Virus record (IMG/VR): IMGVR_UViG_3300043464_000353 | Span: 1-31,489 of that record | Source of the DNA: a virus | Length of the DNA: 31,489 nucleotides | Reading direction: 5' to 3' (one strand) | Part shown: piece after piece, positions 2,514 through 28,394 of the stretch | Layout of the letters: every line of letters starts with the position of its first letter | How positions within the stretch are numbered: position 1 is the stretch's first letter | Program-made: the position numbers and the translations under genes | The notes under the pieces: generated by a model | Databases searched by the model: none | Told to the model about the DNA's origin: nothing | The model's input: the letters and a program-made list of their open reading frames with translations, nothing else

Positions 2514-4517
2514 TTACCAGAGTTCCGATTCGAGGTTGATGTTGTCTTGATTGTCTAAGGCTGAGGTGGGCTGGGGCAGGGACGGAACCCCACCGTACCT
2601 TACGGTACGGGGGGTGGTTCCCTTGTCCGTGTTGAGTTCTGTAAAGTGGTTCCCAAGGGTGGTTCCCGTGTCTAGGGGGTCTGGTCGTGGTTGTTGGCGA
2701 CATTGGATGGCTCGTCCGAGTACTGATTTGCGGGCGAGTGTGAGGCCTCGTTCTTTGGCGATGCGTTGGGTTTCGTTGACTCCTGCGTCTTTGGGTATGC
2801 CTAGTTCGTCTAGGCGTTTGGCTAACGCTATTTCGGCTGGTGTCCAGCCTCGTTGTTCTTTGGTGCGGAGTCTGATGGTGATGATGTCGTCTAGGTCTTC
2901 TACGATGAGTGACACGGTTTCTGGTACCCAGCTGATGCGTGTGTGGGTTCGTTTGAGGGTTAGACCATCGTCTGACTTGTCGAGTCGGTACACGATGTCC
3001 ACGTCATCGTTCTTGGCTGATGAGCCTCGCTGTCCTTGTTTCTTGCCTCCGTCTTTGCCTGCGTGGTCTGTGCGTATGCAGGAGATGTTGGCTCTTTTAA
3101 GGGCGAGTCCAGTCGTCCTGGCGAACTCGCGATAACTATCAGCAGAGTTCTCTTCACCATCAATGGCGCGTCCTGTGGTGTCAATCACTACGACTTCAGC
3201 CTTGGTCAGCTCTACGAGTTTCATGATGGCTGAGGCACCTTCGGTGGTGTTGAGTGGTGGGAGGTTGGGAATAAGGGCGTAATGCAAATGCGATAGGTCG
3301 TCGTCTTCTGTGTAGCCGAATTGTTCTAGGCGTTCGTAGAGGTCTGACTCGATCATCTCGTAATCCAAATACAGACAATGGATGGGTGGTTGGGCTGGTT
3401 GTCCGAGGATGGGTTTGCCGGAGGCGAGTGCTGCGACGACGTTGAGTGTGAGCCAGGACTTTCCTGTCTTTGCTCCAGCGAATAGGGCTGTCTGTCTACC
3501 TTTGGCGATGAGTGGTTTGGCTAACCATTCTTCGGTTGCGTGTTCGAGTGACCAGAAGGTTTTCCAATCCACAAGCATCGAAAGCATTTCGTCTGGTGTG
3601 GGGATTGGTGTGGTTGGCTCGGGTTTGCCTTCATTGGTGGCTAGGAAGGCTTGTGAGGCTTGTTTCCAGTCTCCACCATGTTTGGACGCTGCATAGTATC
3701 CGAAGCGGTTGTAGCCACCTTCAGGGAGCCAAGGGATGCTGGAGGTGAAGACGATGAGTGCGTCGTTGCCGTTGTGACCAATGGTGGCTGATGTGCCGTC
3801 TCGTGGGTCTTTGCCTGGTCGAACCCAATGCTGTTCACCATGACGGTCAGTCTTAGCCAATGTCCAGCCGTCAGGGATGAGTAGTTCTTCCCATGTGGTG
3901 CGGGCGCAGTAGCGGGCTGAGGGCGTGTTGGGGTCGGTGAGGAAGTTGTCCGGTTGACCTACAGGTTTGACCATCTCTGGTTGTTTGGTGAGTAGCTTCA
4001 CTAACCAGTCTGGGGCTTTGGCTGGTTTGCGTTCGTGTGGGCTGAGGCCATGTTCCCATTGATAGGCACGACCGTTCGGATGAATCGTTGGGCTTGCGAG
4101 AACCTGCCCTCCACTTCCTCGGATGTCGAGACCTACTCCAAGCCTTGAGCCTGCGTCGTTGCGTATGTCTTCATCACAGTAGAAGTACAGGTGTTGTCCA
4201 CCTGTGCCGGTGATGGCGGTGACGGTCTCTGGTAGTTGACCGTACTTTTCTTGCAGGTCATGCAACGTGTCGGAACCTTTGTATTCTTCTCTATCGTCCA
4301 CGTCGAGTACGAAGATGCGTCCGTGTTTCGTTTGCCCTGTGGCAATACCGATCCCATAACCTGAGTATTGGCTAGTCCACCAGTCGTTGACGACGTGGAT
4401 ATCGTTGGATGCTTTGTCTTGCCATGCTTGCATCGGTGGATACTTTTGCCCAGGCTTGATAGGGATAACCCTTATACCAAGTTCAGCGAGCCTGATGGCT
4501 TCTTCACGCATCGTCAC
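2514..4517 (-). CDS. Primase-polymerase / RepA-like helicase fusion
   Basis: This 667-aa replication protein combines priming and unwinding. Residues about 1-180 are a bifunctional primase/polymerase domain of the archaeo-eukaryotic primase type: LDVDD (D72, D74), TGGQHLYF (H109), and the signature LDIRGSGGQVLASPTIHPNG (from L130). A middle segment (about 205-290) with TSATIGHNGNDALIVF is often seen in phage primase-helicases. Residues about 335-520 are a RepA/RecA-like ATPase with Walker A GAKTGKS (348-354), Walker B VVVID (442-446) and RTDHAGK (482-488). The GTG at 4517 overlaps the stop of the HTH gene; an ATG two codons downstream (4511) is equally possible. No separate DNA polymerase is visible, so host polymerase or the prim-pol itself must extend DNA. 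Confidence 0.93.
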   Translation of the reverse strand: MTMREEAIRLAELGIRVIPIKPGQKYPPMQAWQDKASNDIHVVNDWWTSQYSGYGIGIATGQTKHGRIFVLDVDDREEYKGSDTLHDLQEKYGQLPETVTAITGTGGQHLYFYCDEDIRNDAGSRLGVGLDIRGSGGQVLASPTIHPNGRAYQWEHGLSPHERKPAKAPDWLVKLLTKQPEMVKPVGQPDNFLTDPNTPSARYCARTTWEELLIPDGWTLAKTDRHGEQHWVRPGKDPRDGTSATIGHNGNDALIVFTSSIPWLPEGGYNRFGYYAASKHGGDWKQASQAFLATNEGKPEPTTPIPTPDEMLSMLVDWKTFWSLEHATEEWLAKPLIAKGRQTALFAGAKTGKSWLTLNVVAALASGKPILGQPAQPPIHCLYLDYEMIESDLYERLEQFGYTEDDDLSHLHYALIPNLPPLNTTEGASAIMKLVELTKAEVVVIDTTGRAIDGEENSADSYREFARTTGLALKRANISCIRTDHAGKDGGKKQGQRGSSAKNDDVDIVYRLDKSDDGLTLKRTHTRISWVPETVSLIVEDLDDIITIRLRTKEQRGWTPAEIALAKRLDELGIPKDAGVNETQRIAKERGLTLARKSVLGRAIQCRQQPRPDPLDTGTTLGNHFTELNTDKGTTPRTVRYGGVPSLPQPTSALDNQDNINLESELW
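2584..2667. repeat. Repeat cluster in the 3' end of the primase-helicase gene (candidate origin)
   Basis: On the plus strand GTGGTTCCC occurs exactly three times, at 2614-2622, 2646-2654 and 2659-2667. A related inverted copy, GGAACCCCAC, lies at 2584-2593. Between the inverted copy and the first direct copy is a perfect 7-bp stem CCGTACC/GGTACGG with loop TTAC (2594-2611). Clustered direct repeats with a hairpin inside a replication gene resemble phage and plasmid origins. The region is also coding, so part of the repetition could come from the encoded GTT/GNH residues. Confidence 0.45.
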
Positions 4518-6969: not shown

Positions 6970-7391
6970 GATGCTTGCTCCTCTATGTGGAATTGATTGG
7001 TTTCTGGGATATAGATCAGGTTCAGCAGGTCACGTGCGATGCCGTGACAAGCGTTAGCGAATCGCTGTGCTTGTTTCACGTCAAGGCAAGCTAGGGCTTC
7101 ACCTGGTTTTGTGTATTTCTGCGAGGTGATTTGGGAACAGATGTCCTTCACCAAGTCTTCATCGAATTGGCCTGAGTCGAACAGAAGGAATAACCCTCTG
7201 GCGATTTCAAACCTTCGAAGAGATTTTGTTTCTTTGAGGCTGATGCTGCGACCAGCAAGTTCGGCTTGCGTGATGAGCATCGCCATCCTTGCCCTGTCTG
7301 CACCTTGAATGCCGTTTAAGCGTTCACGAATGTAGGTGACCGCTTGGTCATCGCCAGGCTGGTCTAGGTCACGACCCTCGATGGCGTTCAT
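6966..7391 (-). CDS. Hypothetical helical protein in the recombination block (141 aa)
   Basis: This is a mostly alpha-helical, soluble protein of 141 residues without obvious catalytic motifs. It is coupled by ATGA overlaps to both the RecB-like nuclease gene upstream and the SSB-like gene downstream, which suggests a recombination or replication accessory role. The segment RRFEIARGLFLLFDSGQFDE is the most distinctive part. I do not recognise the family. Confidence 0.7.
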   Translation of the reverse strand: MNAIEGRDLDQPGDDQAVTYIRERLNGIQGADRARMAMLITQAELAGRSISLKETKSLRRFEIARGLFLLFDSGQFDEDLVKDICSQITSQKYTKPGEALACLDVKQAQRFANACHGIARDLLNLIYIPETNQFHIEEQAS

Positions 7392-8542: not shown

Positions 8543-8583
8543 TCGCAGGCCTCCTAAAGCTAGGGAATTATGGGTGTGGATTG

Positions 8584-8611
8584 ACAGTAGCAGGTTGAAT
8601 TGCTTTGTCAA
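8584..8611 (-). promoter_or_regulatory. Candidate promoter for the recombination/replication block
   Basis: On the minus strand TTGACA (8611-8606) is followed after 16 bases by TACTGT (8589-8584), a consensus -35 with a TAnnnT-type -10. It lies in the 78-base gap (8543-8620) ahead of the RecB-like nuclease. The same gap has an inverted repeat, TTGACA at 8581-8586 facing TGTCAA at 8606-8611, which could be an operator overlapping the promoter. Confidence 0.6.
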
Positions 8612-8620
8612 GCATTACTT

Positions 8621-8989
8621 CTACGGGGTGGGTGTAACAGGGTTTTGGGTTGGTTGGTCAAGCATGAACATCAGTTCACCCCACACCTTCGCAGGCATCA
8701 CCGCATACCAGTCATCAACATTCGTTGACCCTCTGCGCTTAATAATGACCGTGCCAGTCCACGCTTTAGCGTTCTCCATCTCGACTTCAAGTTCACGCAA
8801 ATAGCCTGGAATATCAATCTTCTTTTCTGCTTTAACTTCGATGCAGACACCAGGCATTCCGTCTATGTCGCCTCTGTCGTCTTGCCATCCGGCACGACTG
8901 CGTTCAGCGTGAATCCAGCCAAGTTTGCGCAACCATTTCGCTACAGCAAGTTCAGCTGCGGAACCTTTACGCTTCTGCGGTGATGTCAC
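8621..8989 (-). CDS. Small PD-(D/E)XK nuclease (Holliday-junction resolvase-like)
   Basis: This 122-aa protein begins with KRKGSAAELAVAKWLRKLG and continues with ERSRAGWQDDRGDIDG and CIEVKAEK. The glutamate of the first helix, the D of GDIDG and the E-x-K of IEVKAEK form the expected PD-(D/E)XK active site, in a size and layout like archaeal Hjc and VRR-NUC enzymes. It could resolve branched DNA before packaging. The GTG at 8989 has AGGAGG seven bases upstream and overlaps the end of the WhiB gene by 23 bases. Confidence 0.83.
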   Translation of the reverse strand: MTSPQKRKGSAAELAVAKWLRKLGWIHAERSRAGWQDDRGDIDGMPGVCIEVKAEKKIDIPGYLRELEVEMENAKAWTGTVIIKRRGSTNVDDWYAVMPAKVWGELMFMLDQPTQNPVTPTP

Positions 8990-9269
8990 CAGTACGCCTC
9001 CTAGACCGTTTCAACCTTTGACGCTCCATAGTAGTCGTACCACCCCAGATGCCTATCTCATCGTTGTCTAGCGCAAACTTGAGACAGATTCGACGCACGT
9101 TGCAACCAGCGCAAAACAGTTTCGCATCAGCGATTGCGTGTGGTGAACCTTCGTTGAAGAACAGTTCTGTCTCGCCTTTACAGCGTGACATTTCTTGCCA
9201 TTCAGGTCTGAGCGGTCTGAAGGTGTTGTCACCGTCTGACCACATGTCAACGACATGACCGCTACTCAT
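8967..9269 (-). CDS. whiB: WhiB-family transcription regulator
   Basis: The 100-aa protein has the four-cysteine iron-sulfur pattern C30, C53, C56, C62 (C-x22-C-x2-C-x5-C), then the family turn GIWGG (73-77) and a basic tail MERQRLKRSRRR for DNA binding. WhiB proteins are confined to Actinobacteria and their phages and bind the primary sigma factor, so this is the best host marker in the window. The ATG at 9269 overlaps the upstream stop as ATGA; a longer frame to 9317 would lie in the upstream gene. It is likely a regulator of host or phage late transcription. Confidence 0.93.
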   Translation of the reverse strand: MSSGHVVDMWSDGDNTFRPLRPEWQEMSRCKGETELFFNEGSPHAIADAKLFCAGCNVRRICLKFALDNDEIGIWGGTTTMERQRLKRSRRRTGDITAEA

Positions 9270-12609: not shown

Positions 12610-12773
12610 TAGTTGTTGTCCTTATTGGTGTATGCGCCGATGAAGTGCAGAACGAGAGCTGCTGCTGTGAGCCAGATCACGATCTGTTGCAACTTGCCAG
12701 ACAACGTGAGGATCGTGGTGACTGATGCTGCGATTGTCCATATCAACGCATGGAACTCACCCCAAAACTTCAT
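12609..12773 (-). CDS. Second holin-like or antiholin membrane protein (54 aa)
   Basis: An open frame from the ATG at 12773 to the TAA at 12611-12609 encodes 54 residues with two membrane helices, about 9-25 (ALIWTIAASVTTILTLSG) and 30-47 (QIVIWLTAAALVLHFIGA). Its ATG overlaps the stop of the Thr-rich gene (TGATG) and its stop overlaps the r1t-like holin start (TAATG). Tandem small membrane proteins before the endolysin often act as a holin/antiholin pair. Confidence 0.77.
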   Translation of the reverse strand: MKFWGEFHALIWTIAASVTTILTLSGKLQQIVIWLTAAALVLHFIGAYTNKDNN

Positions 12774-14221
12774 CACCGAATCCTTCTTGCTGGTGCAGGG
12801 GCTACCGTCAAGAATACAGCACCCAAAGCAATCAGCGCACGACGAGTGCTAACCGGCACAGTCGAGTTGAGTGGAACATAGTTGTCTGCGAAACCTTGGA
12901 AGATATTCAGCACAGATTCAAATGCTTTTCTCACGGACGAAGGTGCCGATTGCACAGCTTCGACTACTGCTTCGGCTTCGTCGGGGCTGAGTTCGGTTGG
13001 GGCGATTTCGTTGAAGAGTTGTTCGGCTTGGGCGGTGGTGATGTTTTCTAGTACGGCTGGGCTGGTGATGAGGAGGGTGGCTTGGCTGGTGTCTAGGTCT
13101 TTGCTGAGGACTGAATCCACGATGGCTTCTATGGCCTCTGTGGAGGCTTCTGAGAGGGCTTCTAGGGTGTTTAGTAGTTCTGTTTGGGTGAGTGGTTCAG
13201 GCTCATCTGTGGGGGCTTGTAGCGTTGTGGTCACATCTGGTTGAGATGTGGTCACAGGAGGGACGGTTGATGTCGTTGTTGGTGGATTTGTTGAAGTTGT
13301 GCTGGTTGTTTCTAACGGAGGCGGGAGTGTTGTGGTGGGGGCTAATTCTGGTTCCGTTGTGGTGGTTGTCGTTGTTGTTTCGGGAACAGTAGTTGTCGTT
13401 GCCGGTGGAACATAAACCGTCGTCGTCGTGGTTGTTAGCGTTGGAACATAAACTGTCGTGGTCGTTGTTGGGACTACAGTCGTTGAAGTAGTTGTACTCG
13501 TAGTCGAGCTAGTTGAGGTATCCGTTGAAACTGTTTCTTGGACTGTTGTTGTTGTTTGTGGTGGTTCCGTTGTGGTTGTTGGGACGGACGTTTGAGGAAG
13601 ACTCGAAGTCGTTGTAGTTGTTTCTTGAACTGTCGTAGTAGTCGGGTTGGTGACAGGGACAGTCGTTGACGGGACAGTAGTAGTAGAGGTCGTCGTCGTT
13701 GTTGTGGATGAGGTTGTAGATACCCATTCACCCAAGCCTAATGTCAACCCCGTAATCGTGAGCAGACCTGGTTGGCAGCATGAATCAGTCGAGTACTGCT
13801 GGAACGCAAACACATCACCAGTCTCAACTGTTATGAGTCCTGATCCGGTGGCGTTACTCTGATTCGTCAGCTGAGTCACAACCCCATTGAGAATGATTTG
13901 TGGCGGGTCATAATTCGCACCATCGTTCGTCTGATACGCCCACTGGAAACCGAGTTCAGTTGTCTCCTCTGGGATGATGGCCTCAAGTTTCACCCAATGT
14001 GACTGACCAGCACACGTACCACCATCAGCACCCGTCAACCTAAACCCACCCTCAACCGGCTCAACAAACCCACCCTGCTCAGCAAGACAAGACTTCGAGA
14101 ACTCCCACACACCAAACGCATCAGCCTCAGCCGACGACGCTGTGAAAAGAAAACCTACTAACGCTGGGAAGAAAACTAGATAGCGGGAGACTCGACCCAA
14201 GCCTGATTTGTTTCGTCCCAC
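12773..14221 (-). CDS. Secreted, membrane-anchored protein with mucin-like Thr-rich stalk
   Basis: This 482-aa protein has five parts. Residues 1-33 are a signal peptide with a basic start (GRNKSGLGR) and a hydrophobic core. Residues 34-165 form a compact beta-rich domain with several cysteines (C45, C70, and CC at 148-149) and WVKLEAIIP and FQWAYQT strands. Residues 168-335 are a low-complexity stalk of Thr, Ser, Pro and Val. Residues 336-455 are helical and acidic. Residues 462-476 are a C-terminal membrane helix followed by RRIR. Such Thr stalks and tails are common in Acidimicrobiia surface proteins, so host origin is likely. It sits between tail fibre and lysis genes. It may be displayed on infected cells to exclude other phages or decorate the surface; a virion spike is less likely given both a signal peptide and an anchor. 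The start is the GTG at 14221. Confidence 0.82.
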   Translation of the reverse strand: MGRNKSGLGRVSRYLVFFPALVGFLFTASSAEADAFGVWEFSKSCLAEQGGFVEPVEGGFRLTGADGGTCAGQSHWVKLEAIIPEETTELGFQWAYQTNDGANYDPPQIILNGVVTQLTNQSNATGSGLITVETGDVFAFQQYSTDSCCQPGLLTITGLTLGLGEWVSTTSSTTTTTTSTTTVPSTTVPVTNPTTTTVQETTTTTSSLPQTSVPTTTTEPPQTTTTVQETVSTDTSTSSTTSTTTSTTVVPTTTTTVYVPTLTTTTTTVYVPPATTTTVPETTTTTTTTEPELAPTTTLPPPLETTSTTSTNPPTTTSTVPPVTTSQPDVTTTLQAPTDEPEPLTQTELLNTLEALSEASTEAIEAIVDSVLSKDLDTSQATLLITSPAVLENITTAQAEQLFNEIAPTELSPDEAEAVVEAVQSAPSSVRKAFESVLNIFQGFADNYVPLNSTVPVSTRRALIALGAVFLTVAPAPARRIR

Positions 14222-15250: not shown

Positions 15251-16504
15251 CTATGCCACAGCAAAATCGGTGTCATCAAGCGGTGAAGAATCAAGCAAGA
15301 ATGGTGACACCAACTGAACCTGACCCAACCCTAAAAACACCTCATGACGTGACGGAGCGATCTGATGTCTAATGGATTCGACCACCACGTTCTGTCGAAC
15401 CACCGAAGGCGTACCAACAGCGAACCGTTTCTCCACCGCCAAAATATCACCAATCTCCAACGAGGCCATCAACTCTTGCTGAGCCGAAGACAAACCGTTC
15501 AACAGCACGCTGGTCTCATTGAACACCACCTCCGGCTCACCATACCTATCAAGTAAAGCAACAGCCAAAGCCGAACCAGCAGCATCATTGACCAATGGCA
15601 AATTGTTCAACGCAAAGTTCTTAATCCCATACTCAGCCTGCGAAGCCGTACCATTCACCACACTCAACACACTCGAACCCTGCACCTGAACCGAAATACG
15701 ATTCAACACAGTCTCAGCACCATACAAATTATTCAACGAACGAATCGGAACATCCGTCACCGCAGTCCCACCCAACACCGCCACAGCCGTCCCAAACGAA
15801 ACCTGAATACGAGGATCAAACACCAACATCCCATCACGGGACGCATAGAACCGACCATTCTCCGAAACCTGCAAAGCCTGCAAAGCCTCCAACACGTTCG
15901 CATTATCCTCATACGCAACCGTCCCAACCGTTGCCAACCCAGGGTTAATTTCACGCAACGCAGTTGACCACGACACCTCATTCCTAGACAAGATTGCATC
16001 AACCCGCTCAGACGTGAGCTGCTGCGAAGGATTGAATCCGACAAGGTTGGTTTGGGATAGTTGTGCCAAAGCATCAACAGCAAGAATCTGTGCTGATGAT
16101 AACTGTGGTTCATCGTATTCAATGTTCAAGTCATAGATGTAACCCTTGAACATCGCAGCCGTTCCAGCCGAACCACCATAAACCTCAACCGCTCGACGTG
16201 GAGCAATACCCAAGTCTCCCTGATACCAAGGTGAGGCTGTGTTCAACGGGTCGAATGACCTGCCAGATGCACGGTCATCAGCGAGGATGGCAAGTGTTCC
16301 GGTGTTGAACGTGTCTACCTGGTTGGTGCGTCCACGATTGATAGTGATGTTCTGAACATACTCAGTAATATCCACAAACTCTGTAGAACCTTCAAGGGTG
16401 TCAGTCCCGTCAAGAAGGCTGGAGTCCAATTTGAAGATGTTGGTCTTGAACCCAACATCCAAATTGACCTTAAGGGTTTCCCCCCATATCGCTTGCTTAG
16501 CCAT
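15251..16504 (-). CDS. Minor tail protein (tail tip/hub)
   Basis: This 417-aa protein carries FDPLNTASPWYQG and IAPRRAVEVYGG (residues about 85-110), a signature of actinophage minor tail proteins that follow the tape measure. The order of long beta-rich stretches fits a distal-tail or hub protein. It begins with a TAATG overlap at the tape measure stop. Its N-terminal phrase FKLDSSLLDGTDTLEG and C-terminal SPLDDTDFAVA resemble phrases in the repeat protein at 28679-29425. Confidence 0.84.
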   Translation of the reverse strand: MAKQAIWGETLKVNLDVGFKTNIFKLDSSLLDGTDTLEGSTEFVDITEYVQNITINRGRTNQVDTFNTGTLAILADDRASGRSFDPLNTASPWYQGDLGIAPRRAVEVYGGSAGTAAMFKGYIYDLNIEYDEPQLSSAQILAVDALAQLSQTNLVGFNPSQQLTSERVDAILSRNEVSWSTALREINPGLATVGTVAYEDNANVLEALQALQVSENGRFYASRDGMLVFDPRIQVSFGTAVAVLGGTAVTDVPIRSLNNLYGAETVLNRISVQVQGSSVLSVVNGTASQAEYGIKNFALNNLPLVNDAAGSALAVALLDRYGEPEVVFNETSVLLNGLSSAQQELMASLEIGDILAVEKRFAVGTPSVVRQNVVVESIRHQIAPSRHEVFLGLGQVQLVSPFLLDSSPLDDTDFAVA

Positions 16505-19113
16505 TAGAAGATAGAACCGATAGAACCAAACGAGAATTGTCCACCGGTGAAGTTCAAGTATTCACGCAAATACTGGTCAATCTCCTGACCCACCTCAATA
16601 CCGCTCGCACCCAACCCAGCATTCACCTCGATATTGACAGTACCCATACCGCCACCATTAAACAAACTTCCAGCATTATTATCAGCCAAAGTTTGTGCGC
16701 CAGTAGCAATAGCAACAGGGTTAGGCATACCACCAAGCACCTTCGGATACTTAGTAATCAACTCAGCAGTCTTCTCCAACGCCTCATTCAAACGCTCCTG
16801 AGCTTCAGCTTCACGATCCTTCGCATCAGCGAGCTTGTCCTGTGCATCAGCCTGACGCTTTTGAGCCTCAGTCAACTCTTCAGAGAACTTCGTATAAAAC
16901 TCAGAACCAATAATCGCCCCATTAACCAACTCATTCAAATATGACTGCGATTCAATCAAACCATCAGTCGCTTCCTTCTGTGAATCAATAGCATCCCTTG
17001 AAGACAACTTCGCCTCAGCCAAAGCAATCTCAGCCTCACGGATAGCTTGAGGAGTAGATTCAGGGTCTTTACGAATTTCAGCCAAAGCCTTCTCGGCATC
17101 AGCTACAGCGAACAACGATTCCTCAATTTGGTATCCAGCACGTTCAACTTCACGCTGAGCCTTACCTAATTCTCTCTGAGCCTTAATTGCTTCAGGTGAA
17201 TCAGCACCATATCCGGCAACAGCTTTATCCAAATCAGCCTGTGCTTTAGCCAAATCAGTATTGGCTGTAGCCAAATCATCCTGAGCAGACTTCGTATCCT
17301 TCTGAGCCTTAGAGAAACTCTTTTGTGCTGAAGTGCTTTTCTTCAAAGCATCCGTGTACATCTCTAACTTTTCTTTAGCAGTCTTCATCGTCTTAGAAGC
17401 ACCACCAGTAGCAGTCTCAGTCTTCTTGGTTTCTTCCTTGAAATCGTTCATGACATCAGAGCCAACCTTCAAAGTCCCGTTAACATCATCAAATCTTTCG
17501 TTAACGGTTTGTAGTTGCGCACCAGTCAGACCAACCTGAGTACCAAGTTTCTTGGTGTCCAAAGTAATCTTGGGGATATTAGGGATCAAAGGAATCTTGT
17601 TAAATACATCAATAAGAGTGTTGACTACAGATACCGCAACATTGGCTAATGCTGTTTTCATTTCACCAAACTTGCCAACAAAACCCTTGACTGTATTGAC
17701 TGCGATGTTTGCAATACCTTTAACGAAGCCAGCAAAGATGTCAGGTACCGCAGCGACTAAAGCAACAATCGCCCCACCAAGACCAACGATGAGTTGTCCA
17801 CCGATAGTCAAAGTCCACTTAATCAGCGACCCAGCAAGTCGAGTACCCATAGCCAGAAGTGCTGGGATACCTTCAGACAATATCCATCCACCGATGACGA
17901 CAAGCATATTTACCAGTTGGGCTGGAAGTTGACGTGCAGCCTTACCAACGAAACTGGCCAGCGTGTCACCCAAAGCCTGCACAGCACTCAAGAGTTGTGG
18001 CAAGCCTTTTGTGTAAATCCAGTCATATCCAGCCATCAGGAACTTAGTCAGGTTGCTGATGAACATTGGGATTCGAGGTTCAATCCAACCAGTCAAGGAA
18101 TCAGCGAGCTGGTTAATTCCTGCATAAAGCATTGGCAGACCAGAAGTCGCAATCCATTCTACGGCCTGGGTAATCATCTGACCCAAAGCCTCCACCACCT
18201 TCGGTGCAGATTCTTTGAACCTGGTGGCGATGAAATCAAACCCGCCTGACAGACCACCTTCTTCTAAAGCTGAAGCAAAATCACGGAAGGCTGGGAGCAT
18301 TGATTCGTTAATGAAGGACACAGCACCGACAAACGCTGGAATCATTACTGAACCAATCTGAGCAGTTACATCTGATAATTGTGCTTTTAAGATTTTCTGC
18401 TGCATAGCCAAGCCACCGCTAGTTCGAGCAGCGTCACCTTGAGCCAATGATGTTTGTTCAAGAATTAAAGCATACGACGCTTCGGTTTTAGCGTTAACAC
18501 TTAATGCTCCAGTCCCCTTATAGAGACCCAACTCACGAGCTTTTTCTTTCAAAAGAACATCGGTGAGCGCAACACCATATTTCTTTAACGGTTCAGCTTC
18601 ACCAGATAGACCAGAACGCAAAGCAAGAATTGCTTCTTCAACACTTGTGTTATTGAATGATCCCAAGTCGGCTGCTAACCCGATGAGGGTTGTACTCATT
18701 TCAGCAGCTTTAGCCTGACCAATCCCAAAGGCCTGCATCAAGTTTCCAAAAGTTCCTGTTGCTTCAAGAGCAGCCTGTTTGGTGATACCAAACGAAGTTG
18801 CAGAAGTTTTAGCAAACTCATTAACAACGTTGGCTGAAGAACCAAAAACTACGTTTACTTTGGATTGTGATTCAGCTAAGTCTGAGGCAGATTGGATTGC
18901 CTTATAGGCACCAGCACTAGCAGCTGCGAATGCAGCAGTACCGGCAACCGCAAATTGTTTGAACGATGGCATGACACTTTTGAACTTTTGACCGAAGCCA
19001 GTATCAACCTGTTTACCCAAAGTCCCTAAGTCATCCCCAACTTTCTTGATGCCTTTGGTGGCACCCATAATATCGGAAATAAACTTAACAACGAACGTGC
19101 GCTCACCAGCCAT
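16504..19113 (-). CDS. Tape measure protein
   Basis: This is the longest gene of the genome (869 aa). The N-terminus has the family pattern, with a long helix, the SASDLAESQSKVNVVFG segment and the LGLAADLG/LRSGLSGEAEPL region around residues 70-190. The middle (about 390-480) has several hydrophobic segments that could cross the host membrane during DNA ejection. Residues about 560-790 are a long charged coiled coil rich in Ala, Lys, Glu and Asp. At about 1.5 angstroms per residue it predicts a tail near 130 nm, so a siphovirus. No peptidase motif was seen. Confidence 0.96.
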   Translation of the reverse strand: MAGERTFVVKFISDIMGATKGIKKVGDDLGTLGKQVDTGFGQKFKSVMPSFKQFAVAGTAAFAAASAGAYKAIQSASDLAESQSKVNVVFGSSANVVNEFAKTSATSFGITKQAALEATGTFGNLMQAFGIGQAKAAEMSTTLIGLAADLGSFNNTSVEEAILALRSGLSGEAEPLKKYGVALTDVLLKEKARELGLYKGTGALSVNAKTEASYALILEQTSLAQGDAARTSGGLAMQQKILKAQLSDVTAQIGSVMIPAFVGAVSFINESMLPAFRDFASALEEGGLSGGFDFIATRFKESAPKVVEALGQMITQAVEWIATSGLPMLYAGINQLADSLTGWIEPRIPMFISNLTKFLMAGYDWIYTKGLPQLLSAVQALGDTLASFVGKAARQLPAQLVNMLVVIGGWILSEGIPALLAMGTRLAGSLIKWTLTIGGQLIVGLGGAIVALVAAVPDIFAGFVKGIANIAVNTVKGFVGKFGEMKTALANVAVSVVNTLIDVFNKIPLIPNIPKITLDTKKLGTQVGLTGAQLQTVNERFDDVNGTLKVGSDVMNDFKEETKKTETATGGASKTMKTAKEKLEMYTDALKKSTSAQKSFSKAQKDTKSAQDDLATANTDLAKAQADLDKAVAGYGADSPEAIKAQRELGKAQREVERAGYQIEESLFAVADAEKALAEIRKDPESTPQAIREAEIALAEAKLSSRDAIDSQKEATDGLIESQSYLNELVNGAIIGSEFYTKFSEELTEAQKRQADAQDKLADAKDREAEAQERLNEALEKTAELITKYPKVLGGMPNPVAIATGAQTLADNNAGSLFNGGGMGTVNIEVNAGLGASGIEVGQEIDQYLREYLNFTGGQFSFGSIGSIF

Positions 19114-19122
19114 GCGACGATT

Positions 19123-19833
19123 CTACTCAATAACAGACAACCCATTCCGCAAAGCCCTGAACTCATTAAGCATCGCCGAATACAACTCTGCGTCTGACAG
19201 ACCATCCCAACGAGAAATATCTACAGGAGCATTCCACCAAGCCTCAGACATCATCTCTGCACCAGCACGACGCTGACGAGGTTGACGCACCTGCTTTGAG
19301 CGAGGTGATACAGGATTGATGACAGGTTCAACATCCAACTTCAACGATGAATCAAGCAACTCGCCATGACCTTCATGGAACTCAAACGGCTGATCTGGTG
19401 CGTGTTGAGGGAGATAAAAAATACGTGCAGGGTCTTTAGTTGCCTCGTCACCACGAAGGTTGATTCGCTGGTGCAGTTCCTCCCAGACCACCCGCCACAA
19501 AGACGCAGGCACCTTCTCCGCTAACGGCAAAACAAGGTGATAGTGAGGATCGTCTAGACGATGCGAATAGGTGGAGTAAGCAAACCATTCCAAACCGTCA
19601 AGACGTGCATGGTCAAACGCTTCACCGTCCATGTCCACAACCAACGCCTCAACAAACCTGACATTACGGTTGCCTCTGGTAGTACCCAAGTCATACTCAA
19701 CCGGTGACCACAACGCCCCAGCCTGTTTGACTGCGTTCTCCTCATGGAACGACAACAGCTCTTTCAACTGCATCCAAGACGAAGCGAACCGCTTCGGATG
19801 TATCGACTTTGTATTAGTAAATAAAACTGCCAT
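19123..19833 (-). CDS. Primase-like protein located in the tail module
   Basis: This 236-aa protein has features of the archaeo-eukaryotic primase fold: EALVVDMDGEAF (D-x-D near residue 67), HYHLVLPL (an sxH-type motif near residue 98) and DPARIFYLPQHAP, a phrase typical of phage and plasmid Rep/primase N-terminal domains. No helicase domain follows; the rest is a basic linker, RSKQVRQPRQRR, and a short C-terminal domain beginning MMSEAWW. The genome also has a prim-pol fusion elsewhere. Its position between a tail gene and the tape measure is odd. A strong AGGAGGAGG lies ahead of the ATG at 19833, so it is expressed. Function could be priming, or nucleic-acid binding only if the active site is incomplete. 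Confidence 0.7.
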   Translation of the reverse strand: MAVLFTNTKSIHPKRFASSWMQLKELLSFHEENAVKQAGALWSPVEYDLGTTRGNRNVRFVEALVVDMDGEAFDHARLDGLEWFAYSTYSHRLDDPHYHLVLPLAEKVPASLWRVVWEELHQRINLRGDEATKDPARIFYLPQHAPDQPFEFHEGHGELLDSSLKLDVEPVINPVSPRSKQVRQPRQRRAGAEMMSEAWWNAPVDISRWDGLSDAELYSAMLNEFRALRNGLSVIE

Positions 19834-19893
19834 AACCCCTCCTCCTAGAAGGGTACAGGAAACTCACTCAAAGTCAAGCATTATTTTTTTCAA

Positions 19894-20520
19894 TCAATCC
19901 TTAACAAAAACCAGGCCAGAACTGGTCATATTCCATGTGCCACCAGCGACAGCACGGGCTTTAGCTTTCTCGGCATTATCATCAGCCAACTTTGCCAAAA
20001 CTCTGTCAATAGCAGCCAAATACTCATTAGCTATGTTTTGCTTTTCTTTACGAACAGTAGGCCAAAAGAAGTAACCGGAACGTCCACGATGACGCAAAAA
20101 TTGTTTTGTCCTAGGCGTAGCCCCACCACCGAACTCGGCACCAAAGAACACATCGCCTCTGGTGACTTTACGCTTCACCCTTCTATGCGTTTTGATGTTA
20201 TAGGAAGAAGTGAACTTGCTTGATTTTGATTGGAAAAGGGAGTTTTCTTGAAGTTTAATAGTTGGGATACGATCTCGACTTGCTCTCATCCCTTTCATTA
20301 CTTCAACAGCCTGACGGCTACGAGTTACAGTTCTAGCCTCATTTTTGGCTTTATCAAGAAGATTCTGTGCAACTGATTCAGCAGCCTTACGCATTTCATT
20401 ATTAAAATTAGCGTTAGCCCTAGAAGCATCACGAAGAAACTTACCGATGCCATCAATCTGAATGGCATCGTTGCCACCAGTAATTGAAACTTGTCCTGCT
20501 CTGCCAAACGCTTCTGCCAT
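19894..20520 (-). CDS. HK97 gp10-like tail/neck protein
   Basis: The 208-aa protein has FLRHRGRSGYFFWPTVR near residues 142-158, the core phrase of gp10-like tail-component proteins, together with a helical N-terminal half (residues 20-65). These proteins usually join tail to neck. Here it is found after the tail chaperones rather than beside the connector genes, which is an unusual order. The ATG at 20520 begins ten bases after the frameshifted chaperone stop. Confidence 0.75.
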   Translation of the reverse strand: MAEAFGRAGQVSITGGNDAIQIDGIGKFLRDASRANANFNNEMRKAAESVAQNLLDKAKNEARTVTRSRQAVEVMKGMRASRDRIPTIKLQENSLFQSKSSKFTSSYNIKTHRRVKRKVTRGDVFFGAEFGGGATPRTKQFLRHRGRSGYFFWPTVRKEKQNIANEYLAAIDRVLAKLADDNAEKAKARAVAGGTWNMTSSGLVFVKD

Positions 20521-21445: not shown

Positions 21446-21475
21446 ACTATACACGCCAGCAGGACGACGAATCAA
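21446..21475 (-). promoter_or_regulatory. Candidate promoter for the major tail protein gene
   Basis: On the minus strand TTGATT (21475-21470) is followed after 18 bases by TATAGT (21451-21446), close to the sigma-70-type consensus. It lies in the 78-base gap in front of the major tail protein gene; AGGAG precedes the ATG. Confidence 0.6.
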
Positions 21476-22519: not shown

Positions 22520-23188
22520 CTAGTTGATTGACGCAGCACCACGATATGGAACACCCTCAAGCGAATAGTTCACAAACGGGTTCAACGAATACACCTGACA
22601 TGAATACACATCCCACAGGCGTTGCTTCATCGCTCGAAGGTGCATCTCATACAAACCCCAATGCGAATCACCTGGCACATAACCGTCAACCCTGTCACGC
22701 CCACCCAACGAACCACAGTCAGCCCCAACAAGGACGATGAACTTTGCGCCCATGTGCGCTGCAAGGTGCATCGCCCCATGAATGCTCGAAGACCCGATAG
22801 TCAACTGCCCTGACAACACAGGCCAATCTTTTCCATGCGGGTCAAAGGATGTGCCTGGTCTGCCGGTACGAGTACCGAACGTGGTGATGTTCGGCATGAA
22901 CCCACCGAACGATCCATCGGTACCATGCTCCCGTTCAGGGGTGAAAACACCAATGCACTCATCTTGCATCGCTTCATGCTTTGAATCTTCGTGATAATGA
23001 CTAAAGCAGTAATAACCTTTCAGACCGAATACTGAGCCAACGAAGTTGACTGCGATGGTTATCTTGTCGTCAAAGAAGTCTGGTGTCAGATAGTCGAGTG
23101 TTGCACCTGAGCCAAGAACATAGATGGTCTCGCCTTCGTGCAGATTCTCGTAATCGTCCATCGGGTCGTAGTGTTCTTTCAATCCCAT
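22520..23188 (-). CDS. MptE/DUF115-like protein (glycan-related)
   Basis: This 222-aa protein opens with ETIYVLGSGATLDYLTPDFF (from residue 19), then ITIAVNF, ending with FIVLVGADCGSLGGRDRVDG. The GSGxSLD...NxxI.....N pattern is that of DUF115/MptE-like enzymes, which act in sugar or surface-glycan modification and are often encoded with glycosyltransferases. Here it follows two such genes with overlap. The ATG at 23188 has AAGGGA in front and is preferred to a TTG at 23218. Confidence 0.7.
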   Translation of the reverse strand: MGLKEHYDPMDDYENLHEGETIYVLGSGATLDYLTPDFFDDKITIAVNFVGSVFGLKGYYCFSHYHEDSKHEAMQDECIGVFTPEREHGTDGSFGGFMPNITTFGTRTGRPGTSFDPHGKDWPVLSGQLTIGSSSIHGAMHLAAHMGAKFIVLVGADCGSLGGRDRVDGYVPGDSHWGLYEMHLRAMKQRLWDVYSCQVYSLNPFVNYSLEGVPYRGAASIN

Positions 23189-23844
23189 CCCAAATCCCTT
23201 CGTCGTGTTAAATCCCAATGTCCCGCATCAGGCAACCCTGACTGCCAACGCATCGCATGAAGCGCACCATTCGCAGCGAAGCTGCGCTGATTCTTTTCCA
23301 TCAACTCTGGTGCAGACAAAATCGTAGAAGAATTATCATGAACAACCCCAGCATCAGAAGTCCAGAACTTGATGTTCAACCGTGTAGCGCGTTCCTGAAA
23401 ATCGTTGTCCTCGAAGTAGGCGGGAACATAACATTCCGAAAACAACCCAACCTTGGCAATTACCTCAGACCCAATCCACGCACAAGACCAACCAGGCTGA
23501 GCCTCAGTCAATGTCACCGAATCAGGTTTGCAATCGTTGTAAAAAACTTCTAACTGTCCAGGCTCAAAGAACGCATCAGAGTTCAGTATTATCCAACCGT
23601 CAGCGTGAGGTGTTGCTTTGATGCCGAGGTTCCACGATGGAGCAACACCGAGGTTCGTTGGCATTGACCAGACGTGATAGTTCTTGATATGGCGACGGTC
23701 AATGACCCAAGGGTAATCGTGCAACGTGGACTGCCCGCCATTGTCGATGACGATGAGTGTTTCCACCGGATAGTCGATGGACTGTAAGCAGCGTTCTAGT
23801 AGGTCATACCTGTTTAGGACGGGGACGATGATGACTGGCACCAT
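23179..23844 (-). CDS. GT2-type glycosyltransferase
   Basis: The 221-aa protein has the GT-A order: VPVLNRYDLLERCLQSI at the N-terminus, LIVIDNGG, NLGVAPSWNLGI, and ILNSDAFF for the metal-binding D-x-D-like site, then an acidic YFEDNDFQERA loop. It transfers a sugar from a nucleotide donor, probably to a capsid or tail protein, or to host glycan. I chose the ATG at 23844 (AAGGAG upstream), giving 31 bases overlap with the GT4 gene. Confidence 0.88.
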   Translation of the reverse strand: MVPVIIVPVLNRYDLLERCLQSIDYPVETLIVIDNGGQSTLHDYPWVIDRRHIKNYHVWSMPTNLGVAPSWNLGIKATPHADGWIILNSDAFFEPGQLEVFYNDCKPDSVTLTEAQPGWSCAWIGSEVIAKVGLFSECYVPAYFEDNDFQERATRLNIKFWTSDAGVVHDNSSTILSAPELMEKNQRSFAANGALHAMRWQSGLPDAGHWDLTRRRDLGWD

Positions 23845-25124
23845 TCCGACAACTCCTTCATGATTGGCTTCCAATGGCTCTCAAATACGGCATCAGCTTC
23901 ATATTGGCTGGCAAAGGCCACAGCCTCGTCTGACACGCCTCTAGGGGCTTCGTAGGCCTCAATCAGAGCCTCCACGATGGATGGCACCTGTGGGGTGCAG
24001 AACCAAGACTTCTGATGGCTATCCCAGAACGGCTGGATTGCCACAGCTGAGCCAACCCCAACCAACTCAGGCTGAGCGGTGTAGTCGGAAACGATGACCC
24101 GTGTACCGCAAGCCTGAGCCTCGATAACAGGGATACCGAAACCTTCACCCATCGAGCAAGCCAACAGCACATCCGAAGCGGTGTACAACGCTGCTAACGC
24201 TTGCTGAGGGAAACCAGTCCGATACGCATACGGGTCAACAATCTTGTATTGCTCAGGCTTCACACCACACGCATCGAGCAGATGTACAAGGTTGATACCA
24301 CCCATCGCACCATCACGTTCTGTGTGCAGATATAGCAAAGCATCAGGACGGTCTTGAGCGAAGATAGCGAACGCAAGAATGTTCTCACCAAAAGATTTGC
24401 GTGAAGGGTTCTGACCTTTGTTCGCAGCGTTCATCATCACAACAAACCTGTCCTCATCCACCTCCATCAACTGTCTGCCTGTGAACTCGCCACGAGTATT
24501 CGACAACTTGTGTGTAGGAACAAACACCTTCTCAAACGCATGAGGCGCATACATCGCATCAACACCCGAGTTCTGCAACATGTCCAAACCAAACTTAGAC
24601 ATCGCAATCGGTTTCACATTAGGACGCTTACACCAAGCCACAACCTCTGGCGGGCAAGGCGCATGGTCAATCGGAACCCACGAAGCGATATTCGGAACCT
24701 GCTCCAACGACGGAGACTTCAAAACCCACACATCAAACAACGTCATCAACATCGCAGGAATCTCACGATTCCCATTCGCCCAATCCATCCAATGCGCAAC
24801 CAGCACATCATCGGAATATGGGGACATCCCTCGTGGATAAAGTTTTATACCATTCCACATCGAAGCCATACCTTCGATGCCGTACATCGCATGGATTGCT
24901 ACTTCGTGTTTTTTGGTGAGCCTTTGGACGACTTGCGCTGTCTGGGTTCCGTACCCTGTTGGGGCGAACGGGGCGTTCGAGTACCAGAGGATTCGTAACG
25001 ATTCGGCATTGGTAAATCTGCCAGCTCTGGCAAGTGCGCTATTCCCCTGTGGAGCAATATCTCTGCTTCCAGGTCTGGTAACTCGACCGGAGTGTTTTTT
25101 ATTATTACGAGCATTACCCACCAT
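23814..25124 (-). CDS. GT4-type glycosyltransferase
   Basis: This 436-aa protein has a Rossmann-like N-terminal half beginning LRILWYSNAPFAPTGYGTQT (residues 44-63), and the C-terminal GT-B half carries MGEGFGIPVIEAQACGTRVI, the E-x7-E retaining GT4 motif that binds the nucleotide sugar. A basic low-complexity N-terminus of about 40 residues precedes the fold. It follows the capsid terminator and starts the glycan island. AAGGAG lies in front of the ATG at 25124. Confidence 0.92.
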   Translation of the reverse strand: MVGNARNNKKHSGRVTRPGSRDIAPQGNSALARAGRFTNAESLRILWYSNAPFAPTGYGTQTAQVVQRLTKKHEVAIHAMYGIEGMASMWNGIKLYPRGMSPYSDDVLVAHWMDWANGNREIPAMLMTLFDVWVLKSPSLEQVPNIASWVPIDHAPCPPEVVAWCKRPNVKPIAMSKFGLDMLQNSGVDAMYAPHAFEKVFVPTHKLSNTRGEFTGRQLMEVDEDRFVVMMNAANKGQNPSRKSFGENILAFAIFAQDRPDALLYLHTERDGAMGGINLVHLLDACGVKPEQYKIVDPYAYRTGFPQQALAALYTASDVLLACSMGEGFGIPVIEAQACGTRVIVSDYTAQPELVGVGSAVAIQPFWDSHQKSWFCTPQVPSIVEALIEAYEAPRGVSDEAVAFASQYEADAVFESHWKPIMKELSEWCQSSSSPS

Positions 25125-25159
25125 TCTCTCCTTCGCAGGTCGCAGGGAATAAAAAGAAA

Positions 25160-25196
25160 TGAGGGTAGGTCGCCCTGCGTGTTCGACCTACCCTCA
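25160..25196 (-). terminator. Intrinsic terminator after the major capsid gene
   Basis: TGAGGGTAGGTCG (25160-25172) pairs perfectly over 13 bp with CGACCTACCCTCA (25184-25196) around an 11-base loop. On the minus strand the stem is followed by TTTCTTTTTATTCC, a classic U-rich tail. It follows the capsid stop by about 43 bases and should end or reduce transcription before the glycosyltransferases. Confidence 0.92.
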
Positions 25197-25203
25197 AACT
25201 TAC

Positions 25204-25221
25204 ACCGATATTGCTATCGGT
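25204..25221 (-). repeat. Small hairpin between capsid stop and terminator
   Basis: ACCGATA (25204-25210) pairs perfectly with TATCGGT (25215-25221) around a TTGC loop. It lies between the capsid stop codon and the intrinsic terminator. It may protect the capsid mRNA 3' end or assist termination. Confidence 0.6.
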
Positions 25222-25239
25222 TGCACTACCTCAAACCAA

Positions 25240-26418
25240 TTATGGCTGGAGGAGGTGCTTGATGTGTGATGTCTGTGGCAGATCGCCGTCAGCGCGGAAT
25301 GTTGCGCGGAAGGTGACGAGGCCTTGGTTGAAGGCAAAGTCATCTGAACGATCCAAACGAAGTCCACCGACGGTTCGCACGAAATACGAAGGCAAGTGAC
25401 CAACGATCACACTCTTCGTACCAGTCGCAACGTCAACCATTGACGGATTCTCATAGATTGGCTTACCAAGCAACATGTCTGGGCTGTCCATTGAAAGGGC
25501 AGGCTGGAAAACATAATTTCCGGCGGTGTCCTTCAACTTGCGAACCTGACCAACGGACTTACCGTTCATCATCCAACCAACACCTGGAAGGTTGCGAGCT
25601 GCACCATCCAAGGAGTAGAGGAGGTCAATGAGGTTGTCTGCGGTGAATGCGGTAGCTGTGCCAGCCGTTCCGCCCACACTCGATGCCGTGACGATTCCGT
25701 TTGCTGTGTCAGTTCCCGAACCAACAGTCAACGCTGAACCAACAGCGTAACCGAGTGCGTTACCAACCTGATCTGCCAAGAATGACAGCATGTCCACGCC
25801 TGAGTCTTCAAGCAGTTCAGTTGATACTTGGGTGAGGAAGCTGTACTTGAACGCGCTCAAAGTGATGAACGAGTTGAATACTGGATCGGATTCACCGATT
25901 GCTGAACCTTCGCCAGTAACAGTTCCAACCGAGTAGGTTGACAACGATGGGATTTGGAGGTTCTCTCCACCAGCGGTGTTCAACACAGTTGAAGTCTGCA
26001 ATACAGGTGCGATCAAACGCGCACGCATGATGACCTGATCGTAGAACGAAGTTGGCACAGGCGAACCGGTGCTTGACTTCAAGATGTCACGCTTTTCAAA
26101 CGTGTGGTTACGCTTCTCACCTGTGAACAATGAACGCAGTTGCGCTACATCGTCGCTTACTGGTGCGCCTGCAATAGGACGAACCTGATCGGCAATTTCA
26201 CGGGTTGCTGAGTCCATGCGCAATTCACGAGCTTCGTCTTCACGAAGTTTCGCGATGGTCTGCGCACGCTCATCCAATTCCTTCGAGATTCGCTCGTAGG
26301 TTTGGGTTTCTTCTGCTGTGAGGTCACGCTTCTCTGCGGTGGCTGCATCCAAGATTGACTTGGCTTCATTCCATGCACGATTGCGAATCTCAACCTGACG
26401 GTCAATATATTCTTTCAT
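25240..26418 (-). CDS. HK97-type major capsid protein
   Basis: This 392-aa protein has an N-terminal delta/scaffold region (residues 1-110) that is charged and helical (NEAKSILDAATAEKRDLTAE), followed by the HK97 fold starting near residue 115 (STGSPVPTSFYDQVI). Typical phrases follow, such as IPSLSTYSVG, ITLSAFKYSFLTQVSTELLE and GWMMNGKSVGQVRKLKD. The delta region would be removed by the upstream prohead protease. It is followed by a strong terminator. Confidence 0.96.
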   Translation of the reverse strand: MKEYIDRQVEIRNRAWNEAKSILDAATAEKRDLTAEETQTYERISKELDERAQTIAKLREDEARELRMDSATREIADQVRPIAGAPVSDDVAQLRSLFTGEKRNHTFEKRDILKSSTGSPVPTSFYDQVIMRARLIAPVLQTSTVLNTAGGENLQIPSLSTYSVGTVTGEGSAIGESDPVFNSFITLSAFKYSFLTQVSTELLEDSGVDMLSFLADQVGNALGYAVGSALTVGSGTDTANGIVTASSVGGTAGTATAFTADNLIDLLYSLDGAARNLPGVGWMMNGKSVGQVRKLKDTAGNYVFQPALSMDSPDMLLGKPIYENPSMVDVATGTKSVIVGHLPSYFVRTVGGLRLDRSDDFAFNQGLVTFRATFRADGDLPQTSHIKHLLQP

Positions 26419-26552: not shown

Positions 26553-28394
26553 CTAGAAGTTCTTCAGCAATTCAAGATGCTTCGCCAACACACCAACGCT
26601 CGCAGGAGCAGACTGTGGTGTTGGTTCAAGTTTCGCAACTGTTTCACGCAACAACGCAGCATGATCAGGTGCCAAGGTTTGACCTGATTCCAACGCTGTT
26701 ATCGCAACCGCAAGCTGATCGGCATCAATACCGGTGCGAGTAGCAAGCGCATCAAACGAACGAACCGAAGCCGATGTCGCTGCATACGCTGGGAAACCAG
26801 TAACCACCGAAACTTCATAGAGTTTGATTTGACGCAACTCACGAGTCATACCATCATCAGACCAACGGTCACCACCTTGAGGAACCGTGAAACCGAACGA
26901 CATCGAGTCAACGTCTTTGCGTTGCATCAACACCGACAGGTCACGACCAACGGTTGTGTCAGGCAAATCGGCCTCAACAAACAAACCTTTAGAATCCTCA
27001 ACCAAACGCATCGTTTTAGCCCTAGTGGTAGCCAACAGCATTGACGAATCATGGTTCATGTACATACGGATATTGTTCCGTGACTTCAACGACTTAGCGA
27101 ACGCGCCAGGCATAATGCGCTCGATGAACGGGAGTGGCTCAGAGTCAGAGTTGAATACTGCTGCATAACCACTAAAGGTCATGCCGTTGCCCTCTACGGC
27201 TGCACGAAGTTCAAAGTCATTGAATGTTATGCGACGTGTCTCAACCTGTTCAGCCATACCTGAAACATTAGCAACAAAACCACCAAGCGATCTAGAAGAC
27301 TTCGGATGTTCCTTCGGAAGAAGATCATTGTCACCAACATAAGCATCATTCTCAGGTCTGCCGTTACGCAACAAATACAGGAACGCATTCACCCGCGCAT
27401 AAGCCCATTGGTCACGAGTCATGCCTGGACGATGCGAAACGGAATACGCTCCAGCACCACGACGGAACACAGCCCGCAACATCCCAATCGTTGCACGCTG
27501 ACCAGGGTTGTCACCAACATTGTCATTATGTTCCTCAACCTTGTTCGCCAAGCCTGTCTCAATCGCCTCAGACAACTCAATCGTCCCAGCACCAGCAGGA
27601 GAATCAGCCGAGCCAGGAGCGTTCTTATCTGACCCTACGATTTGATCCTTCTTCGGTGCCGGAGCGTCAGCTCGCTCATCCTTGATCTGTTCGGATTTAC
27701 GCGCAAACCAATCCATCGCAGGTTCAGGATTCAACGGGTTAATGCCCCAAAGATAGAAGGCCACAGCACCAGCACCAGGGAACTCCTTGTCATCAGCGTT
27801 CGAGTTCTTTGCAGCATCCAAATCAACCATGTGACGTGCAGCCCAAGCGTTCGCACGAATCACCTTGTCTTCTGTGATCCGACCAGCAACCATCTCACGA
27901 GCCTCACGAACAGTCGAGGCAACAATTCCCGCACCCGCCAACTTCTTACCGTAATAGTCCAAACCTTTACGCGCAGCCGATTTGATGTACTCAGGCAAGT
28001 CAAGATTGACCTCACGAATATCGACACCGATTTCCTGTTCATCTTCAACCTCAACATCGGTGGACTGCCAAGCGTTGCAATAGAACGCACCATCAACAAA
28101 GTCATCCCACTTTTCACACCACGCTTTAGTCCCATCATCGTTCTGGCGTGACTCATCGTAAAACACACAGTTCCCACACGCACGGCCTTCAGGCACATCC
28201 TCAGCCAACGCTGGACGATAGTTGTCCGGCAAAGCCCGCTCACCACCAGGTTCCATCTCCTCAGCAATCGACACAGCGACCATCTGGTCAATCGCATCCT
28301 GCTTAGTCGTATGGCAACCAATCACTTCGCCATCTTCCTTTTCCACAGCCCAACCCGAACAGTCAGCGTTCTTATCAGAAATGAAGTAAGGCAT
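26553..28394 (-). CDS. Fusion protein: Cys-rich head, unknown modules and prohead protease (S78)
   Basis: This 613-aa protein ends in an HK97-type prohead protease (about residues 385-555): MTFSGYAAVF, MPGAFAKSL, MNHDS with H448, MSFGF with S499 and LYEVSVVT with E527. Residues 1-115 are different: CSGW and GCHTTKQDAIDQ (C12, C27), then CGNC, C93 and C106, a four-cysteine metal or HiPIP-like cluster. Residues 130-225 and 300-365 are helical modules; the second has YSVSHRPGMTRDQWAYARVN and NDLLPKEHP, a phrase common in environmental phage head proteins. The protease should mature the capsid. The ATG at 28394 overlaps the upstream stop as TGATG. The usual prohead protease is about 200 aa, so two thirds is extra. 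Confidence 0.88.
   Translation of the reverse strand: MPYFISDKNADCSGWAVEKEDGEVIGCHTTKQDAIDQMVAVSIAEEMEPGGERALPDNYRPALAEDVPEGRACGNCVFYDESRQNDDGTKAWCEKWDDFVDGAFYCNAWQSTDVEVEDEQEIGVDIREVNLDLPEYIKSAARKGLDYYGKKLAGAGIVASTVREAREMVAGRITEDKVIRANAWAARHMVDLDAAKNSNADDKEFPGAGAVAFYLWGINPLNPEPAMDWFARKSEQIKDERADAPAPKKDQIVGSDKNAPGSADSPAGAGTIELSEAIETGLANKVEEHNDNVGDNPGQRATIGMLRAVFRRGAGAYSVSHRPGMTRDQWAYARVNAFLYLLRNGRPENDAYVGDNDLLPKEHPKSSRSLGGFVANVSGMAEQVETRRITFNDFELRAAVEGNGMTFSGYAAVFNSDSEPLPFIERIMPGAFAKSLKSRNNIRMYMNHDSSMLLATTRAKTMRLVEDSKGLFVEADLPDTTVGRDLSVLMQRKDVDSMSFGFTVPQGGDRWSDDGMTRELRQIKLYEVSVVTGFPAYAATSASVRSFDALATRTGIDADQLAVAITALESGQTLAPDHAALLRETVAKLEPTPQSAPASVGVLAKHLELLKNF

Follow-up and report, generated by a model that had tools for sequence, protein, structure and literature searches.

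The phage analysed here carries, inside its tail module, a small gene that we call aep. It is a real gene and encodes a primase-like, stand-alone archaeo-eukaryotic primase (AEP). Phages often carry members of the AEP superfamily, and the enzyme itself is known in kind. A literature search, of partial coverage and therefore no proof of novelty, turned up neither a primase gene described among tail genes nor a stand-alone AEP fixed in a tail module behind a promoter of its own that was exchanged once. Taking the sequences and a structural model together, we consider it probable, with some reserve, that aep is a fixed, moron-like cassette for an active primase that is expressed apart from the tail operon and acts on DNA in the cell.

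The gene and its setting

The window, by which we mean the whole stretch of DNA analysed, is 31,489 bp long, has a 127-bp end repeat and a GC content of 0.50, and is a complete-looking virus record with nearly all of its genes on the minus strand. The aep ORF is intact and its ATG start is preceded by a strong Shine-Dalgarno sequence (Table 1). The spacing is 60 bp from the gp10-like gene upstream and 9 bp to the tape measure gene downstream. Comparison with PHROGs identified the neighbours as a major tail protein (1.4e-16), tape measure families, a tail terminator and a head-tail adaptor. The first-pass annotation had placed the gene between a gp10-like gene and the tape measure in a genome with a separate prim-pol fusion, and we found both to be correct; the fusion, a PF09250 Prim-Pol joined to AAA_25, lies in the replication block.

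Table 1. Positions of aep, its neighbours, its motifs and the promoter-like elements in the window.
Feature	Position	Strand	Basis
Stand-alone AEP primase-like gene (aep), 236 aa	19123..19833	-	ORF; PHROG primases 2e-14; AlphaFold2 (AF2) model; AEP fold; dN/dS median 0.19
Shine-Dalgarno AGGAGGAGGGG of aep	19836..19846	-	Sequence
Gp10-like/neck gene, upstream, constant left neighbour of aep	19894..20520	-	Weak PHROG 5 match; synteny
Tape measure gene, downstream, constant right neighbour of aep	16504..19113	-	PHROG tape measure families; synteny
Other AEP of the same phage, PF09250 Prim-Pol fused to AAA_25	2514..4517	-	Pfam 4.7e-39 and 1.8e-21
Promoter-like element TTGACT-N16-TACCCT, directly upstream of aep	19850..19877	-	Conserved in 29/34 representatives and 8/8 genomes
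The one further strict promoter-like element, before the recombination exonuclease gene (7388-8545)	8584..8611	-	Pattern scan
Promoter-like TTGATT-N18-TATAGT before the major tail gene	21446-21475	-	Conserved in the aep clade
Motif I, D67-M-D69	19627..19635	-	Invariant in the family alignment and 34 representatives
H97-Y-H99, motif II region	19537..19545	-	H97 and H99 invariant; basic residues here in VirE-type relatives
Motif III/IV, D129-x4-D134-x2-R137 before IFYLPQ	19423..19449	-	Invariant; pattern common to VirE-type primase-helicases

Several other minus-strand genes of the window were of interest in their own right. A WhiB-like transcription factor (8967-9254; PF02467, 3.2e-17) points to an actinobacterial host. 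Three ORFs between the capsid and connector genes (22520-25124) look by eye like glycosyltransferases or sugar-related enzymes, and Pontimonas phage phiPsal1 has annotated glycosyltransferases at the matching place. The head maturation protease (26553-28388) has an N-terminal extension of about 390 residues ahead of the protease domain, and a 482-aa protein (12773-14221) with a long threonine/serine-rich low-complexity stretch is possibly a surface or fibre protein.

Profile and fold relationships of the aep protein

Two PHROG families of DNA primases matched the aep protein (phrog_9765 at 2e-14 and phrog_256 at 3e-9), and tblastn against isolated phages hit VirE/helicase/primase proteins in their N-terminal AEP part, at 24-30% identity; no phage of the isolate collection was found to carry aep itself. 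Searches of Pfam (E up to 10), NCBIfam, PADLOC and PDB sequences gave no relevant match; lacking a PADLOC match, aep was rejected as a defence protein. Relatives of aep were encoded in 341 candidate stretches of viral contigs.

We built an AlphaFold2 model of the protein on a 29-sequence alignment. Its pLDDT is 80 overall, about 90 for residues 1-165 and under 50 for residues 166-189, and the layout is that of an AEP core (approximately residues 1-165) followed by a disordered basic linker (approximately 166-189) and C-terminal helices (approximately 185-232). The protein ends about 70 residues past the AEP core without a helicase part, and Pfam and PHROG profile searches with it found no ATPase match. 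The model contains the RRM-like palm with an N-terminal unit that characterizes the AEP superfamily. Foldseek ranked the AEP domain of S-2L PrimPol (6zp9) first, at 8.3e-05, and VIA-align gave this pair a Z of 9.4 over 137 residues at 14% identity. The VIA-align ranks below were also AEPs: 2atz, which has been counted among AEP structures (PMC8065100), RepB' of RSF1010 (3h20/3h25; Z 6.7-6.8), CAPP and human Pri1 (both about 6) and LigD, whereas Rep/HUH structures scored about 3. Among viral models, the best match was an uncharacterised protein of an uncultured phage (60% identity), followed by AEP domains of primase-helicases. The gene had at first been described as being in the style of Rep or primase domains; the primase half of that description holds and the Rep half is not supported.

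In an alignment with the family profile of aep, VirE-type proteins match at DxD, Y[ST]TxSH and D..T.[DE]..R.[FM]Y.P. By sequence, aep is closest to the AEP halves of VirE-type primase-helicases of phages, and not to the phage's own PF09250 prim-pol. The latter did not match the aep family profile; the genome thus encodes AEPs of two subfamilies, and aep is not a duplicate of the other gene. The PF09250 match occurred once per genome, at the other gene and never at aep.

VirE-type primase-helicases (phrog_9765, phrog_256), such as Brevibacillus phage Emery gp96 and Corynebacterium phage Adelaide gp43, belong by profile to the same AEP subfamily as aep. These proteins are about 800 aa long, are annotated as helicase, VirE or hypothetical, and in the examples inspected their genes lie with replication genes and others of non-structural function. 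By contrast, the aep protein has about 236 aa and a unique HxH, and its gene lies in the tail module with its own promoter; it has the AEP domain of the subfamily and lacks the C-terminal helicase/ATPase domain. The phage's own Prim-Pol is in the AEP superfamily too, but is of the other subfamily, is helicase-fused and is encoded in the replication block. RSF1010 RepB' is, like aep, a small AEP without a fused helicase. It is a plasmid primase in which the motif II His is replaced by Gln (PMC5862659).

Position and history of aep

In all 207 aep loci (207/207), wherever the contig reached that far, aep stood between an upstream gp10-like gene and a downstream tape measure gene; the few flagged exceptions were, by inspection, artefacts of ORF overlap or partial matches. 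These loci span 42-93% identity, and the median dN/dS of 0.19 is in the range of purifying selection.

Relatives with and without aep were gathered by a separate pattern search with the connector protein. We found an empty site in 44 dereplicated aep-less records, in which the tail order is kept and no AEP precedes the tape measure. These include phiPsal1, EBPR siphovirus 6 and viral contigs. The tail modules of these two phages have homologous connector, terminator, tail tube and p96 genes in the order seen in the window, and at the site itself the gene in the gp10 position is followed by the tape measure. phiPsal1, which has RepO-type replication genes, has been described as lytic (PMC6106888).

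On a tree of the concatenated connector, terminator, tail tube and p96 proteins, all aep carriers formed one group. A fast IQ-TREE run on a thinned set grouped the carriers again with an SH-aLRT of 60, which is weak support for an exclusive carrier clade, and joined the carriers and their sister group at 99.7. The empty site in relatives and the grouping of carriers fit one old acquisition before the clade diverged, with loss not seen among carriers. The first-pass annotation had raised a recent insertion and proposed a comparison of gene order in related phages. The gene is indeed absent from the site in those phages, but the synteny of all 207 loci and their 42-93% identity refute a recent gain; the gain appears to be ancestral to the whole clade.

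Over whole records, aep was present as a single copy in 20/20 carriers and absent from 18/18 others. Carriers whose contigs extend to the region of the PF09250 gene have that gene (11 records by protein search and 10 by family), as do 0/18 non-carriers, and the co-occurrence of the two genes may come from a single ancestor. In one carrier record (that of L146, G013), the Prim-Pol/AAA_25 homologue at 24295-25659 is broken by stop codons (one TGA, two TAA), unlike in other carriers.

A host or prophage origin was rejected since about 85,000 species genomes gave one match, on a 5.5-kb MAG contig. This contig (L299, CAMAQQ010000092.1) is the only bacterial-genome contig with a detected primase relative, at 45% identity; it probably comes from a phage and was binned into an actinobacterial MAG. 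The aep-bearing phage group is widespread and mostly aquatic.

A conserved promoter-like element precedes aep

Upstream of aep, the pattern TTGnnn-N16-18-TAnnnT was present in 29 of the 34 representatives, compared with 2.3 expected. Before other genes of the module it was found 0 to 1 times, with the exception of the major tail gene (4/22). When 43 genes of eight larger genomes were scanned, the element preceded aep in 8/8 (0.7 expected), the recombination exonuclease gene in 5/8 (0.2 expected) and the major tail gene in 4/8 (0.6 expected), with at most one such match for every remaining gene. All of these counts take related sequences as separate, and the expectations are guides, not probabilities. 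In the window alone the strict pattern occurred twice against 2.3 expected, which is no more than chance, so the case for the aep promoter rests on conservation across relatives. The other strict element precedes the recombination exonuclease gene, which we labelled an early gene. A generic promoter scan missed the aep element because its second hexamer, TACCCT, departs from TATAAT.

The promoter could exist for the tape measure and the tail genes downstream of it, with aep an ordinary operon member that happens to stand behind it. A distance of 9 bp separates aep from the tape measure gene, and no terminator-like site was seen at its end; the tail genes may thus also be transcribed from this promoter. 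In the aep clade, the major tail gene has a promoter too (23/33, compared with 6/44 in relatives where 4.3 are expected), so a promoter alone is no proof of early aep expression. However, the tape measure genes of aep-less relatives have such a promoter in 1/44 against 3.9 expected, so promoter and aep appear together, and a regulator insertion in one sub-clade falls exactly at the aep start. We regard a promoter that exists for the tail genes, with aep as a mere operon member, as unlikely.

That insertion, 400-540 bp long, is found between gp10 and aep in nine loci of a group at about 45% identity (L101, L110, L114, L118, L122, L137, L174, L180, L192), where it replaces the usual aep promoter. 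It has its own promoter, TTGCAT-N17-TAnnTT (TTGCTA in L118), that contains two TTGT[CT]TTAC repeats exactly 21 bp apart; in L114, for example, the repeats read TTGTCTTAC with this 21-bp spacing. The cassette also encodes a variable small ORF and a 46-aa CopG-type RHH protein (PF01402, 1.4e-7), and the end of the RHH gene overlaps the aep start. To judge from its sequence, the cassette looks like a regulator-controlled version of the promoter and aep unit. RHH genes often precede toxins; a toxin-antitoxin pair of RHH and AEP was rejected as a general reading because the RHH gene occurs in these nine loci only and is absent from the window. The conserved sigma70-type promoter and the regulator cassette favour separate expression over plain membership in the tail operon, and aep is likely transcribed separately from it.

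Separate expression also bears on whether the protein is a virion component. The first-pass annotation had suggested a nucleic-acid-binding virion protein that is injected with the DNA. On this view the primase might be packaged alongside the tape measure, in the tail or else in the head, and prime or repair the phage genome on entry. In all loci aep adjoins the tape measure gene, and there are precedents in co-transferred primases and virion RNA polymerases, as well as injected proteins linked to late genes (PMC5512222). TraC, Sog and the N4 virion RNA polymerase are polymerase-type enzymes delivered with DNA (PMC5512222) and provide the model for such a role; they are Toprim primases or an RNA polymerase, not AEPs like aep. 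PrimPol domains of injected polyvalent proteins have been reported only from conjugative elements (PMC5512222). The conserved promoter and the regulator cassette set aep apart from the structural operon, and a search for a signature of packaging found none. We find packaging rather unlikely, and it is more doubtful still that an active AEP is loaded with the tape measure and injected for priming or end repair before phage gene expression, with its separate and partly regulator-linked promoter setting the dose. Were the aep protein injected, a tailed phage would, to our knowledge, be shown for the first time to deliver an AEP.

Active-site residues of the aep protein are conserved

Alignment of 34 representatives, clustered at 90% and with 42-100% identity to the window sequence, showed that D67, D69, H97, H99, D129, D134, R137 and Y47 are invariant (residues checked in 29 to 34 sequences). 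Part of this set was retrieved by the pattern DPARIFYLP, which forces conservation from D134 to P142 in those loci and leaves that of D67, D69, H97, H99 and D129 unforced. The D-x-D, the H-x-H-like motif and the RIFYLPQ that the first-pass annotation had noted, together with the lack of a helicase, correspond to D67-M-D69, H97-Y-H99 and residues 137-143, and the conservation of acidic residues and histidine that it proposed checking extends to 42% identity. Profile match, fold and active site all bear out its view of the gene as primase-like, and neither of the outcomes that it had named as counting against this view was observed.

The arrangement agrees with the motifs of the AEP superfamily: VVDMD fits the hhhDhD/E of motif I, and there is a motif II His or substitute, an acidic motif III and an Rh motif IV. 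By analogy with characterized AEPs (PMC8065100, PMC5862659), D67 and D69 are the predicted metal ligands of motif I, D129 and D134 would form motif III, and the invariant R137-I138 would be the Rh motif IV as defined in PMC5862659. H91, which is upstream of H97-Y-H99 and nearly invariant, H97 and H99 are the candidates for the motif II His. The acidic, His and Tyr positions are comparable to those of the AEP domain of S-2L PrimPol, the best solved fold match, and Y47 is at about the spacing of its putative counterpart, the steric-gate tyrosine (PMC8065100). S-2L PrimPol is a multi-domain protein with a PriCT-2 domain and is the sole possible polymerase of its phage (PMC8065100).

HxH (H97-[YW]-H99, with Y or W at position 98) is specific to the aep family and takes the place of basic residues in VirE-type proteins. 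This difference, the missing helicase and an own promoter such as many morons have are what might be expected of a catalytically altered AEP that binds nucleic acid or targets the host, in counter-defence or superinfection, and is not a primase. We think this improbable: even between distant family members, none of the acidic residues of the active site varies, nor does the arginine of motif IV, and PADLOC gave no match. A Rep-type nuclease is very improbable: the invariant H-[YW]-H has the form of an HUH motif and is followed 41 residues on by an invariant tyrosine, Y140, as a possible nicking residue, but Rep structures reach a Z of about 3 against 9.4 for an AEP, the DxD is invariant, and Y140 belongs to a motif common to AEPs, R.[FM]Y.P, that VirE-type AEPs have without HxH. 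Helix 110-123, in the place of the helix that bears the catalytic Tyr after HUH in Rep proteins, has no invariant Tyr.

Discussion

Our best reading, from sequence comparison and the model, is that aep encodes a single-domain AEP nucleotidyltransferase, a primase or primase-polymerase, of the VirE-type primase-helicase branch, without the helicase. The gene would have been acquired once by the ancestor of the clade, between the gp10-like and tape measure genes, and kept under purifying selection. Its transcription by host sigma70-type RNA polymerase would start at its own promoter and be separate from the main structural transcript. In the protein, D67, D69 and D129/D134 may hold two metal ions that catalyse nucleotidyl transfer directed by a template, H97/H99 and R137 may bind the triphosphate, and the basic linker and helical C-terminus may dock it on single-stranded DNA or on a partner. 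It could then make primers or short patches on phage DNA in replication or recombination, perhaps helped in trans by the helicase of the phage's Prim-Pol/AAA_25 protein.

As the proposed cassette for a separately expressed, active primase, aep shares some features with morons. Compared with close relatives such as phiPsal1, aep is an extra gene at a clean site, and sequence conservation indicates a promoter of its own. It has no terminator of its own and does not come and go as a dispensable gene would; because it is never lost among carriers of the clade, we call it moron-like rather than a moron.

Few gene orders are as conserved as those of phage structural operons, and replication enzymes are normally encoded elsewhere. 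Here a second, unrelated primase appears to have been put inside the tail module once, and it persists in the clade down to 42% identity; in one lineage another promoter, accompanied by a regulator gene, has taken the place of the usual one. The gene lets one ask what need a phage of 31 kb has for two primases, and if either of the two works as the genome enters the cell.
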